NCBI RefSeq assembly: GCF_014280035.1
Contig: NZ_CP047957.1
Span: 930,001 to 994,000, forward strand
Source of the DNA: Synechococcus sp. A18-25c
GTDB lineage: Bacteria > Cyanobacteriota > Cyanobacteriia > PCC-6307 > Cyanobiaceae
DNA: 64,000 nucleotides
Reading direction: 5' to 3'
Position numbers and translations under genes: made by a program. Of the stretch, positions 33,017 to 39,073 are shown piece by piece (the first letter of the stretch is position 1; each line of letters begins with the position of its first letter). The notes below the pieces were generated by a model. The model had not been told where the DNA came from. It made no database searches and saw only the letters and a list, made by a program, of their open reading frames with translations.

Positions 33017-34432
33017 ATGAGCAAGAAGTACGACGCTGGGGTCAAGGAGTACAGGGATACCTACTGGACTCCTGATTACGTCCCCCTCGACACCGACCTG
33101 CTGGCCTGCTTCAAGTGCACCGGCCAGGAAGGTGTGCCCAAGGAAGAAGTCGCCGCTGCTGTGGCTGCTGAATCCTCCACCGGCACCTGGTCCACTGTGT
33201 GGTCCGAGCTCCTCACCGACCTCGACTTTTACAAAGGCCGTTGCTACCGCATCGAAGACGTCCCTGGTGACAAGGAGTCGTTCTATGCCTTCATCGCCTA
33301 CCCCCTCGACTTGTTCGAAGAGGGTTCCATCACCAACGTCCTGACCTCACTGGTCGGCAACGTGTTTGGTTTCAAGGCGCTGCGCCACCTCCGTCTGGAA
33401 GACATCCGCTTCCCGATGGCGTTCATCAAGAGCTGCTACGGCCCGCCGAACGGCATCCAGGTCGAGCGCGACCGCATGAACAAGTACGGCCGCCCTCTGC
33501 TGGGTTGCACCATCAAGCCGAAGCTCGGCCTGAGCGGTAAGAACTACGGCCGCGTTGTTTATGAGTGCCTGCGTGGCGGTCTGGACTTCACCAAGGACGA
33601 CGAGAACATCAACTCCCAGCCCTTCCAGCGTTGGCAGAACCGCTTCGAATTTGTTGCGGAAGCCATCAAGCTGTCCGAGCAGGAGACCGGCGAGCGCAAG
33701 GGTCACTACCTCAACGTGACCGCCAACACTCCCGAAGAGATGTATGAGCGCGCTGAGTTCGCCAAGGAACTCGGTATGCCAATCATCATGCACGACTTCA
33801 TCACTGGTGGCTTCACGGCCAACACCGGTCTGTCGAAGTGGTGCCGTAAGAACGGCATGTTGCTGCACATCCACCGCGCCATGCACGCGGTGATCGACCG
33901 TCACCCCAAGCACGGCATCCACTTCCGCGTTCTCGCCAAGTGTCTGCGTCTGTCCGGTGGTGATCAGCTGCACACCGGCACCGTGGTCGGAAAACTGGAA
34001 GGTGATCGTCAGACCACCCTTGGTTACATCGACCAGCTGCGCGAATCCTTCGTGCCCGAAGACCGCAGCCGCGGCAACTTCTTCGATCAGGACTGGGGTT
34101 CCATGCCTGGCGTGTTTGCCGTTGCTTCCGGCGGTATCCACGTGTGGCACATGCCTGCCCTGGTCACCATTTTCGGCGACGACTCCGTTCTTCAGTTCGG
34201 TGGTGGTACCCATGGTCACCCCTGGGGCTCCGCTGCAGGTGCTGCTGCCAACCGTGTGGCCCTCGAGGCTTGCGTCAAGGCACGCAACGCCGGCCGTCAT
34301 CTCGAGAAAGAGAGCCGCGACATCCTCACGGAAGCCGCGAAGCACAGCCCCGAGCTGGCCATCGCCCTCGAGACCTGGAAGGAAATCAAGTTCGAGTTCG
34401 ACACCGTCGACAAGCTCGACGTTCAGAACTGA
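33017..34432 (+). CDS. cbbL: Rubisco large subunit, form IA
   Basis: 471 residues. Active-site blocks: [15 protein letters not shown] (catalytic Lys), [16 protein letters not shown] (carbamylated Lys and Mg ligands), HIHRAMHAV, and loop 6 [12 protein letters not shown]. The N-terminus [15 protein letters not shown] and the lack of form IB features, together with csoS genes, place it in form IA (alpha-carboxysome). A CGGAG Shine-Dalgarno lies just before ATG 33017. Highly codon-biased, with mostly C-ending codons, as expected of a very abundant protein. Confidence 0.98.
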
Positions 34433-34491: not shown

Positions 34492-34833
34492 ATGCCTTTC
34501 CAGAGCACCGTGGGTGACTATCAAACAGTCGCCACCCTGGAGACCTTCGGCTTTCTCCCGCCGATGACCCAGGACGAGATCTACGACCAGATCGCCTACA
34601 TCATTGCCCAGGGTTGGAGCCCGCTTGTCGAGCACGTTCACCCCAGCAACTGCATGGCCACTTACTGGTCGTATTGGAAGCTCCCCTTCTTCGGTGAGAA
34701 GGATCTCAACGTTGTGGTGAGCGAGCTCGAGGCTTGCCATCGCGCTTATCCCGACCACCACGTGCGCATCGTTGGCTACGACGCTTACACCCAGAGCCAG
34801 GGTGCCTGCTTCGTGGTCTTCGAAGGCCGCTGA
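34492..34833 (+). CDS. cbbS: Rubisco small subunit, form IA
   Basis: 113 residues; caps the L8 core to give L8S8. Conserved ETFGFLPPMTQDEIYDQI, EHVHPSNCMATYWSYWKLP and VRIVGYDAYTQSQGACFVVFEG. Begins 59 bases after cbbL, ends 102 bases before the csoS2 start. Form I small subunits from carboxysomal operons lack the N-terminal presequence, as here. CsoS2 binds at the junction between large and small subunits. Confidence 0.98.
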   Translation: MPFQSTVGDYQTVATLETFGFLPPMTQDEIYDQIAYIIAQGWSPLVEHVHPSNCMATYWSYWKLPFFGEKDLNVVVSELEACHRAYPDHHVRIVGYDAYTQSQGACFVVFEGR

Positions 34834-34935: not shown

Positions 34936-37299
34936 ATGGCAAGACTCTCCAGTCGCGAACTCGCACTTGAGCGCCGTAAGGCGCTGACCACTTCCGGTAA
35001 GAAAGCGTCTGTCGCCGCTCATGGCGGTGCCAATCGGGTGCGTACCGCCTCTGATGCCAGAGCGACCCGCACCAATGCGAATGCCGACCACTCCGATGTG
35101 TCCGTGCCAGCCGCTCCCGTCGCTGTTGCTCCGCGACGTTCGGCAACACTGAGCTCGTCGACCGCTCCTGTTCGTTCCCAGGTGAAGGCCCAGCGCCATC
35201 CAAGTCGTGACTTGGTGTTGGCTCGTCGTGAAGCCTTGTCACGTCGTGGCAAATCCGCTGATACCAGCAAAGACCGCAACCGTTCCGATGTTGCGAAGCA
35301 GTCGAATCCTGTCGCTGCATCTGCACCTCAGGAGACCAAATCCTGCGGCTGCGGCGGCAAGCGCGCTGCTGAGAAAACTGAGCTCTCCGCACCTCCCGCT
35401 GCCAAGGTTCAGTTGACTGCTCGGATCGAGCGCCGGTCGGCAATACCCAAGCGTCGGGCGATCGAGAACCCCAGCCGCGCTCTCGTGCTGGCGCGTCGTG
35501 AAGCGATGGCGAAGCATGGCAAGACCGCCGGCAAGCAACCCACCAGTGCTGCTGCCGTCGCCCGTCAGGCCAACCCCGATCTCACGAGTCGTGAGCTGGC
35601 ACAACAGGTGCGAGAGCTCCGCGCCAAAGCCGGCGCCCGCAACAAGCAGAGTGCTGGTGTGACCCGCCCTACCGGTCCTAACCGTCATGGTGCAAAGCAG
35701 GCAGCTGCTGCTGATGCCCACTGGAAAGTGGGTGAAAGCACCACCACTGGAGGCCAGACCGTGACCGGGACTCAGGCCAACCGCTCGGTGAAGACCACCG
35801 GCAATGAAGCCAGCACCTGTCGCTCCATCACCGGCACGGAATACCTGGGCGCCGAGGTGTTCCAGACCTTCTGCCAATCTGCTCCTGAGCCGACCACCCC
35901 GGCCAAGGTTCGCGTCACCGCGACAAGTCACGGCAACCGTGTCACGGGGAATGAAGTCGGCCGTTCCGGCAAGGTCACCGGTGATGAGCCCGGCACTTGC
36001 AAGACGGTGACCGGCACCGAATACATCTCCGCCAACCAAGCCGCTGCTTATTGCGGTGCCTCTCATCCTTCTCCCCGCAAGGTGGGTCACAGCCTCACCC
36101 TGCAGGGCCGACCTGTGAGCGGTGTGATGGTCGGTCGTTCCGCCAGCGTCACCGGCGATGAAGCCGGTGCTGCACGCAATCTCACCGGTGATCAGTACTT
36201 GGGTTCTGATCCCTTGCCCGAAGGACGACCTGCCGCCAAGGTGGGCCTCTCCGGAACCCTGTCTGGCACTGGTGTGACTGGCACGATGGTGGGCCGCTCG
36301 GCGCAGGTCACCGGTGACGAGTTCGGCTCCTGCCACCGCGTGACGGGCGATCAGTACGTCAGTGCTGAGCAGGTGAATGCTTTCTGTGGAAGCAAGCCCG
36401 AGCCAGAAGCCGCCAAAGTTGGCTTCAGCATCACCAATCGCAACCAGGTAGTGAGCGGCACCCGTACGGGTCGATCGGAGATTGTGACTGGCGATGAGCC
36501 TGGCAGCTGCCAGGCCGTGACCGGAACTCCTTATGCAGGTCTCGAGCAGGCCGGCCAACACTGCGGCACCCCCGCAGTCCAGGCCATCCTTGAGCGCACT
36601 CCCGTGCGTGCGGGCACGCCTTCTGCTGCCTTGACCGGCATCCAGCCCGGAGTGGGCGGTGTGATGACGGGTGATCAGCGCGGCGCTTGTGAAGCTGTGA
36701 CAGGGACCCCTTATGTCGGTGCTGACCAGCTCGCCGCCGCCTGTGGCGCTGATGCTCCTGCCGGCACCGACACCCATGGTGAATCCCCTGAAGGTGCACC
36801 CTGGACTCGTTTCAGCGTGGTGTCCCCTGCCCGTGCAGCCCAGCAGCAGCGTGAGGCTCGCTCCGGCGTGACCGGTACGTCCTACGAGCAAGGGAACCGG
36901 ATCACCGGCCCTTTTGACATGGCTGGCGGCAAGGTGACTGGCACGGAGCAATTCCGCTTCGACAACCGCGACTTTCAAAACCGTCAGCAGCGTCAGTTCC
37001 AGCCCACCGTGGCTGTGGTTAGCGAGCCCTCAGAGAAGCCCGCATCCCGGGTGACCGGAGAGGGATCCTCCACCAAGATCACAGGTGATGACTGGGATCG
37101 TGGTGAGCATGTCACGGGTACCGAGGGTGCTTCGGCTCGTCGTCGTAACCCCAGCCGCCCTGGCCCGATGAGCGCCATGTCTCCTTTCGAGCGCAAGCGC
37201 AACGAGGAAACTGAATGGCCTGTGAGCCGTGTGACCGGTTCCAGCGGCAACACTGAAAAGGGGTCCCTGATCACCGTCTCCGGTGGCGCAAGGGGTTGA
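34936..37299 (+). CDS. csoS2: Carboxysome scaffold protein CsoS2
   Basis: Intrinsically disordered scaffold of 787 residues that gathers Rubisco and ties it to the shell. Start ATG 34936 (MARLSSRELALERRKAL); 30 upstream in-frame codons are not conserved-looking. The N-region has three clear Rubisco-binding repeats (residues 7-22, ~91-106, ~181-196: SRxLxLxRRxAL..GK) and a weaker fourth (~219), plus CGCGGKR near 137. The middle holds six M-repeats (262-605). The C-region (from ~618) has VTG/ITG motifs and a conserved end (MSPFERKRNEETEW). A single frame covers all of it. Confidence 0.97.
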   Translation: MARLSSRELALERRKALTTSGKKASVAAHGGANRVRTASDARATRTNANADHSDVSVPAAPVAVAPRRSATLSSSTAPVRSQVKAQRHPSRDLVLARREALSRRGKSADTSKDRNRSDVAKQSNPVAASAPQETKSCGCGGKRAAEKTELSAPPAAKVQLTARIERRSAIPKRRAIENPSRALVLARREAMAKHGKTAGKQPTSAAAVARQANPDLTSRELAQQVRELRAKAGARNKQSAGVTRPTGPNRHGAKQAAAADAHWKVGESTTTGGQTVTGTQANRSVKTTGNEASTCRSITGTEYLGAEVFQTFCQSAPEPTTPAKVRVTATSHGNRVTGNEVGRSGKVTGDEPGTCKTVTGTEYISANQAAAYCGASHPSPRKVGHSLTLQGRPVSGVMVGRSASVTGDEAGAARNLTGDQYLGSDPLPEGRPAAKVGLSGTLSGTGVTGTMVGRSAQVTGDEFGSCHRVTGDQYVSAEQVNAFCGSKPEPEAAKVGFSITNRNQVVSGTRTGRSEIVTGDEPGSCQAVTGTPYAGLEQAGQHCGTPAVQAILERTPVRAGTPSAALTGIQPGVGGVMTGDQRGACEAVTGTPYVGADQLAAACGADAPAGTDTHGESPEGAPWTRFSVVSPARAAQQQREARSGVTGTSYEQGNRITGPFDMAGGKVTGTEQFRFDNRDFQNRQQRQFQPTVAVVSEPSEKPASRVTGEGSSTKITGDDWDRGEHVTGTEGASARRRNPSRPGPMSAMSPFERKRNEETEWPVSRVTGSSGNTEKGSLITVSGGARG
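35719..36749 (+). repeat. Six M-repeats within csoS2
   Basis: Six units of about 50 codons, each of the form KVGxSxTxxGxxVTGTxxGRS-xxVTGDExGxCxxVTGTxYxxxExxxxxCG. Five units carry a Cys pair (GTCxxVTG and ..xCG); the third unit (about 36079-36234) has neither Cys. The first unit is the most divergent and the sixth lacks the KVGxS start. The repeats bind the inside of the shell and are thought to be redox-sensitive through the Cys pairs. Confidence 0.88.
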
Positions 37300-37306
37300 T
37301 GCGCGC

Positions 37307-39073
37307 ATGGTTCGCTCCAAGCCTTCCCGTGGCGGGCGAGCTCTTGCCCCCACAGCCCCAACGAGGCGTCAGCTTCAATCCATGGTGACGCCAGCCGCGG
37401 ACCCCGATCAGGGATCTGCGGGGGAGTCCTTGACTTCCTCGAGTGAATCCACCACGCGTCTGTCCGCTCTGCAACGCAGGCAGGCTCTGACGGTCTCGGG
37501 CAAAGCTGCACGGCTTTCCAGTGGATCAGCGTCAGCTGGTCGTTTGCGCTCCAAGGCCGACCAACGTCGTCCAGTTGTGCATCAGCAACCTGGCTGGGTC
37601 AGACGTGGTGAGACCAAATCGCGTCCAGCGGTCAATCTCAGCCGAACGACTTTGCCCTGGTCGCAAGATCTTCACCCTCTGACGGACCAACAATCCAATC
37701 AGAGGCTTCAGGCCTATGAACTTGAGGTCAAAGGTCGTTTCGATCGCATCGTTCCGCTGCTGAAGCAGGTCTCTGCTCTTCAGCATGAGCCAGATTTTCT
37801 GACCCAGGCTCAGCGGCTTGCGCGGGCTGAGCTTGGTTTTGATCTGCCGGATCACATCCTTGAACTGTCCTGGGTTCGCCCCCTCGACATGCGAGCACTC
37901 TTCGCATGGTGCGTGTTTCAGTCGCATCAGCTCTTCAGTGAGCGTTTTTTCCAGGATGATCCTCTACAAGGGGCTTCAGGCAGCGCTGCGTCCAATGCCT
38001 TCAATGCGTTCCTATTGGAGTGTGGCTTTCATCTTCTGGATGTGACCCCCTGCGCCGATGGTCGCCTCGCCCACACCATTGTTTACGCCCTGCGCATTCC
38101 TTTCAGTGCGGTTCGGCGCCGGTCCCATGCCGGTGCGATGTTCGACATCGAGAACACCGTCAACCGCTGGGTCAAGACCGAACATCGTCGGTATCGCGAG
38201 CAGCATCCCAATGAAGCTCACGCGCCGACCCGTTATCTGAAAGTGGTCACTTACCACTTCAGCTCATTGGATCCCACCCACCAGGGTTGCGCTGCCCATG
38301 GCAGTGATGATGCTCTGGCCGCATCTTCAGGATTGCGTCGTCTTCACGATTTCCGCGAAGCCGTTGAGAACAGCTTCTGCTGTGGTGCTTCCGTCGATTT
38401 GCTGCTGATCGGACTCGACACGGACACCGACGCCATCCGCGTGCATGTTCCTGATGCAGAGGGTGAGATTCGCCTGGATCAATGGCTGTGCGCTTCAGCT
38501 CTCTATGAGAGCACCGCACCACTTACACGCCAACAGGCTCTCGAGGCGGTTGAAGCGGCCGTGAGAACGCATGCCTCGTCATCCCCAGATGACGGGATGG
38601 TGGCATTCATCACTCGCATGTTGATCAACAACATCTCCCAACAGGATTACGTGCGCTCCCTCCATCGCGGGCCCTACCCCGACGCTGGCCATGCCGAGCG
38701 TTTCATTGGTGTGGGCATTGGCTTCAAGGAGGTGCATCTGCGCAATCTCACGTATTTCGCTCACCTCGATACGGTCGAGCAGGGTGCTCCTGATTTGGAT
38801 GTGGGCGTGAAGATCTTTAAGGGTCTGAATGTCTCCAGGGATCTGCCAATTCCCGTGGTGGTTCGCTTCGACTATTCCGGTCGTGTTCCTGGTGCCCGGG
38901 AGCGAGCCATTGCTGATTGCCAACGCATCCAGCAAGCCATCAACGAGCGCTACGCATCGCTGGTGAAGGACGGTCTGCTTCACACCCTTCTCACCATCCG
39001 CGACCGCGACCAGCCCCTACCGGCGGTGGCGGTAGGTTCCACACTCGATCCCGTCCAGCAGGAGGCTCACTGA
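37307..39073 (+). CDS. csoSCA: Carboxysomal carbonic anhydrase CsoSCA (CsoS3, epsilon/beta-type)
   Basis: Dehydrates bicarbonate to CO2 next to Rubisco. From ATG 37307 (588 residues; AAGGGG lies upstream), zinc ligands read as Cys249 (in TPCADGRLAH, which also gives the Asp251-Arg253 dyad), His347 and Cys358 (LHDFREAVENSFCC). A GTG at 37283 is an alternative start. The N-terminal ~100 residues are disordered and basic and carry RLSALQRRQALTVSGK (51-66), closely like the CsoS2 N-repeats. The C-terminal half is the degenerate second CA-like domain. It begins seven bases after csoS2 ends. Confidence 0.96.
   Translation: MVRSKPSRGGRALAPTAPTRRQLQSMVTPAADPDQGSAGESLTSSSESTTRLSALQRRQALTVSGKAARLSSGSASAGRLRSKADQRRPVVHQQPGWVRRGETKSRPAVNLSRTTLPWSQDLHPLTDQQSNQRLQAYELEVKGRFDRIVPLLKQVSALQHEPDFLTQAQRLARAELGFDLPDHILELSWVRPLDMRALFAWCVFQSHQLFSERFFQDDPLQGASGSAASNAFNAFLLECGFHLLDVTPCADGRLAHTIVYALRIPFSAVRRRSHAGAMFDIENTVNRWVKTEHRRYREQHPNEAHAPTRYLKVVTYHFSSLDPTHQGCAAHGSDDALAASSGLRRLHDFREAVENSFCCGASVDLLLIGLDTDTDAIRVHVPDAEGEIRLDQWLCASALYESTAPLTRQQALEAVEAAVRTHASSSPDDGMVAFITRMLINNISQQDYVRSLHRGPYPDAGHAERFIGVGIGFKEVHLRNLTYFAHLDTVEQGAPDLDVGVKIFKGLNVSRDLPIPVVVRFDYSGRVPGARERAIADCQRIQQAINERYASLVKDGLLHTLLTIRDRDQPLPAVAVGSTLDPVQQEAH

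Follow-up and report, generated by a model that had tools for sequence, protein, structure and literature searches.

The 64,000-nucleotide stretch of the genome of Synechococcus sp. A18-25c analyzed in this study (hereafter the window; the genome is a single contig of 2,511,360 bases) contains a cso operon on the + strand, in which cbbL, cbbS, csoS2 and csoSCA follow each other in this order. cbbL (33017-34432) codes for the large subunit of a form IA Rubisco, and cbbS (34492-34833) for the small subunit. The scaffold protein coded by csoS2 (34936-37299) has 787 aa and carries three strong N-repeats of the kind described earlier (Cai et al., 2015, PMC4499774; Oltrogge et al., 2020, as reported by papers citing it): N1 at residues 7-22 (RELALERRKALTTSGK, 34954-35001), N2 (RDLVLARREALSRRGK, 35206-35253), and N3 (RALVLARREAMAKHGK, 35476-35523). 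N1 is followed by a box at residues 33-42, NRVRTASDAR (35032-35061). The last gene, csoSCA (37307-39073), codes for a carboxysomal carbonic anhydrase of 588 aa, which has the N, catalytic, and C domains of this family (Pfam CsoSCA_N, _cat, _C; TIGR02701) and consists of a tail (residues 1-122) and a folded part starting at about residue 123.

Along the CsoSCA tail we identified the stretch PTAPTRR at residues 15-21 (37349-37369), which matches the element PTAPx[R/K]R of Blikstad et al. (2023), a CsoS2-type N-repeat at residues 51-66 (RLSALQRRQALTVSGK, 37457-37504), a box at residues 78-88, GRLRSKADQRR (37538-37570; hereafter the RVR box), corresponding to what follows N1 in CsoS2, and the conserved element QQPGWVRR at residues 93-100 (37583-37606), all on the + strand. 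The initial annotation had placed the repeat at 37442-37519, an interval that does include the motif, with five extra codons on each side. Its comparison of CsoSCA 51-66 with CsoS2 7-22 used the right sequences, and a count by eye gives the same 11 identical residues out of 16; the spacing of the key elements, R-x5-RR-x6-GK (RxxxxxRRxxxxxxGK), is also shared by all three strong repeats of CsoS2, as it had stated. CsoSCA carries a single copy in the tail of an enzyme, whereas CsoS2 has three in a scaffold; both share the 16-residue pattern, the ending ALTT[SA]GK in most copies, and a similar RVR box downstream, the likeness being greatest with N1. They differ at the second residue: according to Cai et al. 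(2015, PMC4499774), an acidic residue directly follows the first basic one in all CsoS2 repeats but one, whereas in CsoSCA this position is usually occupied by S, Q, A, K, or G, with E or D in only 5/64 pattern-bearing tails and L52 in the window. We did not take this as excluding an N-repeat, because that work describes a usual trait with one exception.

The repeat in CsoSCA 51-66 is real and beyond chance. When this tail was shuffled, the strict pattern arose in 17 of 20,000 cases, and none of 20,000 reached the tail's score against an N-repeat PSSM (17.7 bits; maximum 14.9), although this copy has the third lowest PSSM score of the 64 pattern-bearing tails. When CsoS2 and the CsoSCA tail of this genome were aligned locally, the score was equalled by 2/200 shuffles. 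A profile covering all classes of CsoS2 repeats (A3, CsoS2 rows only, searched in 10 whole genomes) was less sensitive: it found the CsoSCA copy in two of four carriers (G216 and G239, E 0.005 and 0.008) and missed it in the other two (G000 and G289), and the copy of the genome under study was not among the matches listed at E <= 1. An HMM was therefore built from N1 alone, using 58 other genomes and excluding the one under study. Among the 1277 ORFs of the window (stop-to-stop, at least 30 aa), this HMM ranks CsoSCA second after CsoS2 itself, with an E of 4.2e-6, the next ORF having an E of 0.28. Together with the profile-profile alignments to N1 described below for the whole group, this indicates homology to CsoS2 repeats; the N-repeat signal for the CsoSCA group is strong, and the window copy is among its weaker members. 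An AlphaFold model of CsoSCA, based on an alignment of 36 sequences (the window protein plus 35 of 40 prepared homologues, five being omitted for doubtful starts or length), places a helix at residues 49-63 over the motif, at low confidence (pLDDT 56 for block 51-60, below 50 for 59-119), which lends weak support to a helical motif.

Concerning the distribution of the repeat, we drew 400 genomes from the family, 356 of which have the CsoSCA C-terminal domain, and examined the tails of 171: 28/29 from the genus of this strain (g1, own genome included), 32/33 from a second Synechococcus-type genus (g5), and 82 plus 29 from other genera. Among genomes left uncounted, two are cut by contig ends (G338, G008), one has a fragment (G317), and one has no frame with the signature sought (G104); two others (G023, G063) have visible tails that lack the pattern. 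The pattern is present in 57/60 genomes of the two Synechococcus-type genera (26/28 in g1, 31/32 in g5) and in 0/111 genomes of the other genera (0/82 and 0/29, the latter mainly g18 and g56). The initial annotation would have been contradicted by an absence from close relatives, which is not what the same-genus genomes show; in Prochlorococcus, where it had also suggested looking, the pattern occurs in 0/28 records with this name. Of the named Synechococcus loci, all seven whose tail could be read possess it, although at least two named records (L005, L029) represent strains that our genome sample also contains. The named record L034 has no tail. The N1 HMM recovers, at E <= 0.01, all 64 pattern-bearing tails (57 genomes and seven named records) and none of the 113 pattern-free ones. 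The best of the latter, with an E of 0.19, belongs to one of three genomes in which the repeat is deleted (G162; see below).

Records named Prochlorococcus and similar genera have short tails without the repeat. The holders form two clades in a folded-domain tree of 121 rows, where the short-tailed Prochlorococcus-like clade arises from the same unresolved node; in a 62-row tree, all holders and the three deletants fall on one side of a single branch, with a support of 52. One gain followed by losses is the simplest reading when set against two gains. We also considered whether other genera possess degenerate N-repeats at the same place, such as SKVLRQRELANAAR in g10 and LRGTRARAAMQ in g31 and g59, but homology to the repeat was unsupported: the best 16-mers of pattern-free tails score at most -2.5, against at least 13.8 for true copies, and the N1 HMM gives no match to these tails at E <= 10 except that of G162. 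Such basic elements are present at the repeat's place in g10 (e.g. L042 and L062) and, as LRGTRARAAMQ or similar, in g31 (L052 and L060) and g59 (L133 and L137); they may represent docking elements of those genera.

The repeat of CsoSCA is under purifying selection. Across 55 sequences, the repeat has a pN/pS of 0.24, as compared to 0.90 in the linker at residues 25-48; the values for the PTAP element, PGWVRR, and the RVR box are 0.15, 0.22, and 0.44, respectively. This calculation omits five of the 60 g1/g5 tails, three because the motif is absent (G162, G169, G181) and two that carry it but are odd or contain an unread residue (G267, G314). The constancy of R51, R57, R58, G65, and K66 is no proof by itself, since the search pattern demands these residues, but A60 and L61, which it does not demand, are also invariant among the copies. 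Moreover, of the 60 tails, 57 carry the copy intact and three have it deleted, and none shows a decayed one. One deletion (G162, locus L231) removes the 16-mer region only and keeps the RVR box, while the other two (G169, locus L172; G181, locus L173) remove both; PTAPTRRQLQ is kept in all three. In the folded-domain tree, G162 lies beside G147 and G112, and G169 and G181 lie among g1 holders; these positions identify the deletions as losses, in at least two events. As the repeat has been deleted in 3/60 genomes, it is dispensable and not the sole docking element: useful, yet not indispensable. The element QQPGWVRR is conserved in the g1 and g5 tails, and the deletants keep PAWVRR, PAWIRR, and QPGWVRR at this place.

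We then asked from which CsoS2 repeat the CsoSCA copy is derived. The nearest class is N1 for all 57 CsoSCA 16-mers. In same-genome alignments, the best local match begins at N1 in 31/33 cases, with a score unreached by any of 200 shuffles in 26/33. When the CsoSCA profile was aligned with 45-residue CsoS2 modules by hhalign, N1 gave an E of 1.3e-15 over 38 columns, against 3.1e-6 for N2 and 4.7e-6 for N3. The likeness thus extends past the 16-mer to a box of the form [GN]R[VIL]R[TS]..D, and for this reason we read it as descent by copying. Taken alone, the stretch after GK is modestly similar to N1 (probability 61%, with 2/200 column shuffles as high). Recent gene conversion from csoS2 was rejected, as identical codons between the CsoSCA copy and N1 (115) are no more numerous than expected from codon usage (132); the absence of excess codon identity also implies that the duplication, if any, is old. 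The initial annotation proposed that CsoSCA docks on Rubisco through mimicry of the scaffold: docking would still be the best reading, while the 38-column match suggests that mimicry is probably better termed a copy of N1.

Two other accounts of the motif's origin and retention can be set against this evidence. Selection may have rebuilt the 16 residues in CsoSCA with no descent from csoS2. Short linear motifs often arise anew, and such convergence would agree with the lack of excess codon identity and with the modest similarity of the part after GK by itself; it is less easily reconciled with copies that are all of the N1 type, with no mixture of classes, and with a profile match that reaches the RVR box, and we regard it as unlikely, at about the level of a serious minority view. 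That the repeat is a non-functional remnant would fit its deletion in three genomes that retain csoSCA, but the constraint on the repeat relative to the adjacent linker makes this highly improbable.

The Rubisco side of the putative interaction is also conserved. The equivalents of Halothiobacillus neapolitanus CbbL D99, S345, F346, and G362, and of CbbS D94 and Y96, are all kept in 57/60 cyanobacterial operons, and these 57 have an aromatic residue at CbbL position 72 (56 F, one Y). Overall, the position matching H. neapolitanus Y72 is F in 59/60 operons and Y only in G051, in agreement with the Y or F reported among form IA Rubiscos (PMC10154267). In the window, F71 of CbbL (33227-33229) aligns with this binding-site Y72, and Y99 of CbbS (34786-34788) aligns with Y96. 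As judged from the alignments, the aromatic ring that stacks on the CsoS2 arginine is kept, while the hydroxyl that is bonded by R23 of H. neapolitanus CsoSCA is absent. A phenylalanine at this position weakly favours the CsoS2 manner of binding, and only weakly, because in H. neapolitanus R23A hardly altered affinity, whereas Y72A cost tenfold (Blikstad et al., 2023, PMC10614612). In native Cyanobium carboxysomes, density at this Rubisco site matched a helical CsoS2 N-peptide (PMC9314367).

We therefore propose, with a probability of about three in four, that residues 51-66 and the RVR box represent an old copy of the N1 module of csoS2 that would dock CsoSCA on Rubisco as CsoS2 does. The module would have entered the disordered tail coded by the neighbouring gene at an early date, in an ancestor of both sampled genera. 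Residues 51-66 would most likely form a short helix lying across the CbbL-CbbL interface/CbbL-CbbS groove, where CbbL F71 and CbbS Y99 would hold one of its arginines in a stack between them, like the CsoS2 repeat in H. neapolitanus. Such docking would tether the anhydrase to Rubisco and draw CsoSCA into the Rubisco-CsoS2 condensate, its repeat competing for a small fraction of the sites with CsoS2, which is more abundant, and working beside the older PTAPxRR, for up to 12 docking motifs per CsoSCA hexamer. We infer these steps (helix on Rubisco, binding, competition, dual docking, and recruitment) from sequence. More tentative, at slightly less than even odds, is the fuller version in which the whole N1 module (helix, GK, and RVR box) was captured, binding Rubisco just as CsoS2 does and competing with it site by site in a two-motif tail with PTAPxRR (again up to 12 motifs per hexamer), the RVR box being an unrecognised second half of N1, in CsoS2 as well.

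Binding of the repeat to CsoSCA itself, to CsoS2, or to a shell protein instead of Rubisco, or a role as a basic tether with no fixed site, may be considered, given that shell proteins are further partners of CsoSCA in H. neapolitanus (PMC12646314) and that disordered CsoSCA tails aggregate (PMC11086599). This seems quite improbable, as the similar CsoS2 repeats are the Rubisco-binding part of that protein (PMC11365436) and no decayed copy exists among the 60 genomes. A closer competitor, whose chances we put a little short of even and which overlaps our preferred explanation, being compatible with Rubisco binding by the repeat as well, is that PTAPxRR is the working docking element of cyanobacteria and the N-repeat an accessory adding valency. 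PTAPx[R/K]R was proposed as a possible cyanobacterial Rubisco motif, with a figure of 87% (Blikstad et al., 2023, PMC10614612), and a PTAP-type element (loose pattern) is present in 168/177 tails, named records included, against 57/171 genomes for the repeat. Its constraint is at least equal, the three repeat-free genomes keep it, and the csoSCA tail of G267 (L244) has RNGRPQAPSRRQLRQNQDRS twice, before and after the N-repeat, that is, a second PTAP-type copy. In addition, CsoSCA of Cyanobium PCC 7001 binds the Rubisco of that strain (PMC10154267), and the start of its folded part (8THM) resembles that in g31 (L064), where the repeat is absent; for this reason PTAPxRR probably also acts in docking. 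What this account leaves unexplained is purifying selection on the repeat itself and its intact state in 57/60 genomes.

The core of this finding has already been published: Blikstad et al. (2023, PMC10614612) noted RxxxxxRRxxxxxxGK in CsoSCA of the genus Prochlorococcus ("a handful" of sequences), "suggesting an evolutionary relationship", which answers the question raised by the initial annotation of whether the cyanobacterial form had been described. Pattern and protein are the same as here, but the label Prochlorococcus disagrees with its absence from the 28 records named so, and a handful of sequences there compares with 57/60 genomes of two Synechococcus-type genera in our sample. The same work shows that the N-terminus of Halothiobacillus CsoSCA binds Rubisco, as the initial annotation had stated, and that it does so at the CsoS2 site via a different motif. 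The H. neapolitanus peptide (P22-A30) and the present repeat both lie in a disordered N-terminal tail and have Rubisco as target with an overlapping site, binding being predicted in our case; they differ in that the former has the motif PRLDLIEQA and another binding mode, in which R23 forms a hydrogen bond with the CbbL Y72 hydroxyl, and reading of the tail of the window protein shows no PRLDLIEQA element. In the further open-licence PMC literature that we covered, preprints excluded, we found no mention of the motif in CsoSCA, including in passages of PMC11086599, PMC12646314, PMC12918739, PMC4499774, PMC9388693, PMC13159521, PMC9314367, PMC11365436, PMC13370225, PMC9164163, PMC10154267, and PMC13249358. 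Within the literature covered, we likewise met no account of a broad occurrence across both Synechococcus-type genera, of an origin from N1, of the RVR box, or of natural deletions.

There is as yet no settled account of how cyanobacterial alpha-carboxysomes take up carbonic anhydrase, and the motif of the solved anhydrase-Rubisco peptide complex of H. neapolitanus was found by its authors only in the closest homologue (Blikstad et al., 2023, PMC10614612). The scaffold-type repeat conserved in the tail of the enzyme offers a concrete and testable candidate docking site in marine Synechococcus, for which the three natural deletion variants provide ready controls. It also suggests that a docking module can pass from scaffold to client within one operon and, if the repeat binds, it may serve as a portable tag to put enzymes into alpha-carboxysome condensates.

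Finally, we searched 14 genomes for N-repeats in further proteins with a profile (A2) of 18 rows, three of which are CsoSCA. Strong matches lie in the csoS2 and csoSCA frames, and 11 weaker places (best E 0.002, in G089; the rest 0.09 to 0.9) were taken as chance. The one in G089 (contig C1, 1652983-1653015) is a short match to positions 8-18 of the profile within a frame of 107 aa that is not part of the cso operon, and is probably fortuitous too. Within CsoS2, the number of N-repeats by a relaxed pattern is four in L207 (G025), two in L210 (G071) and L211 (G095), and three in the other operons listed.
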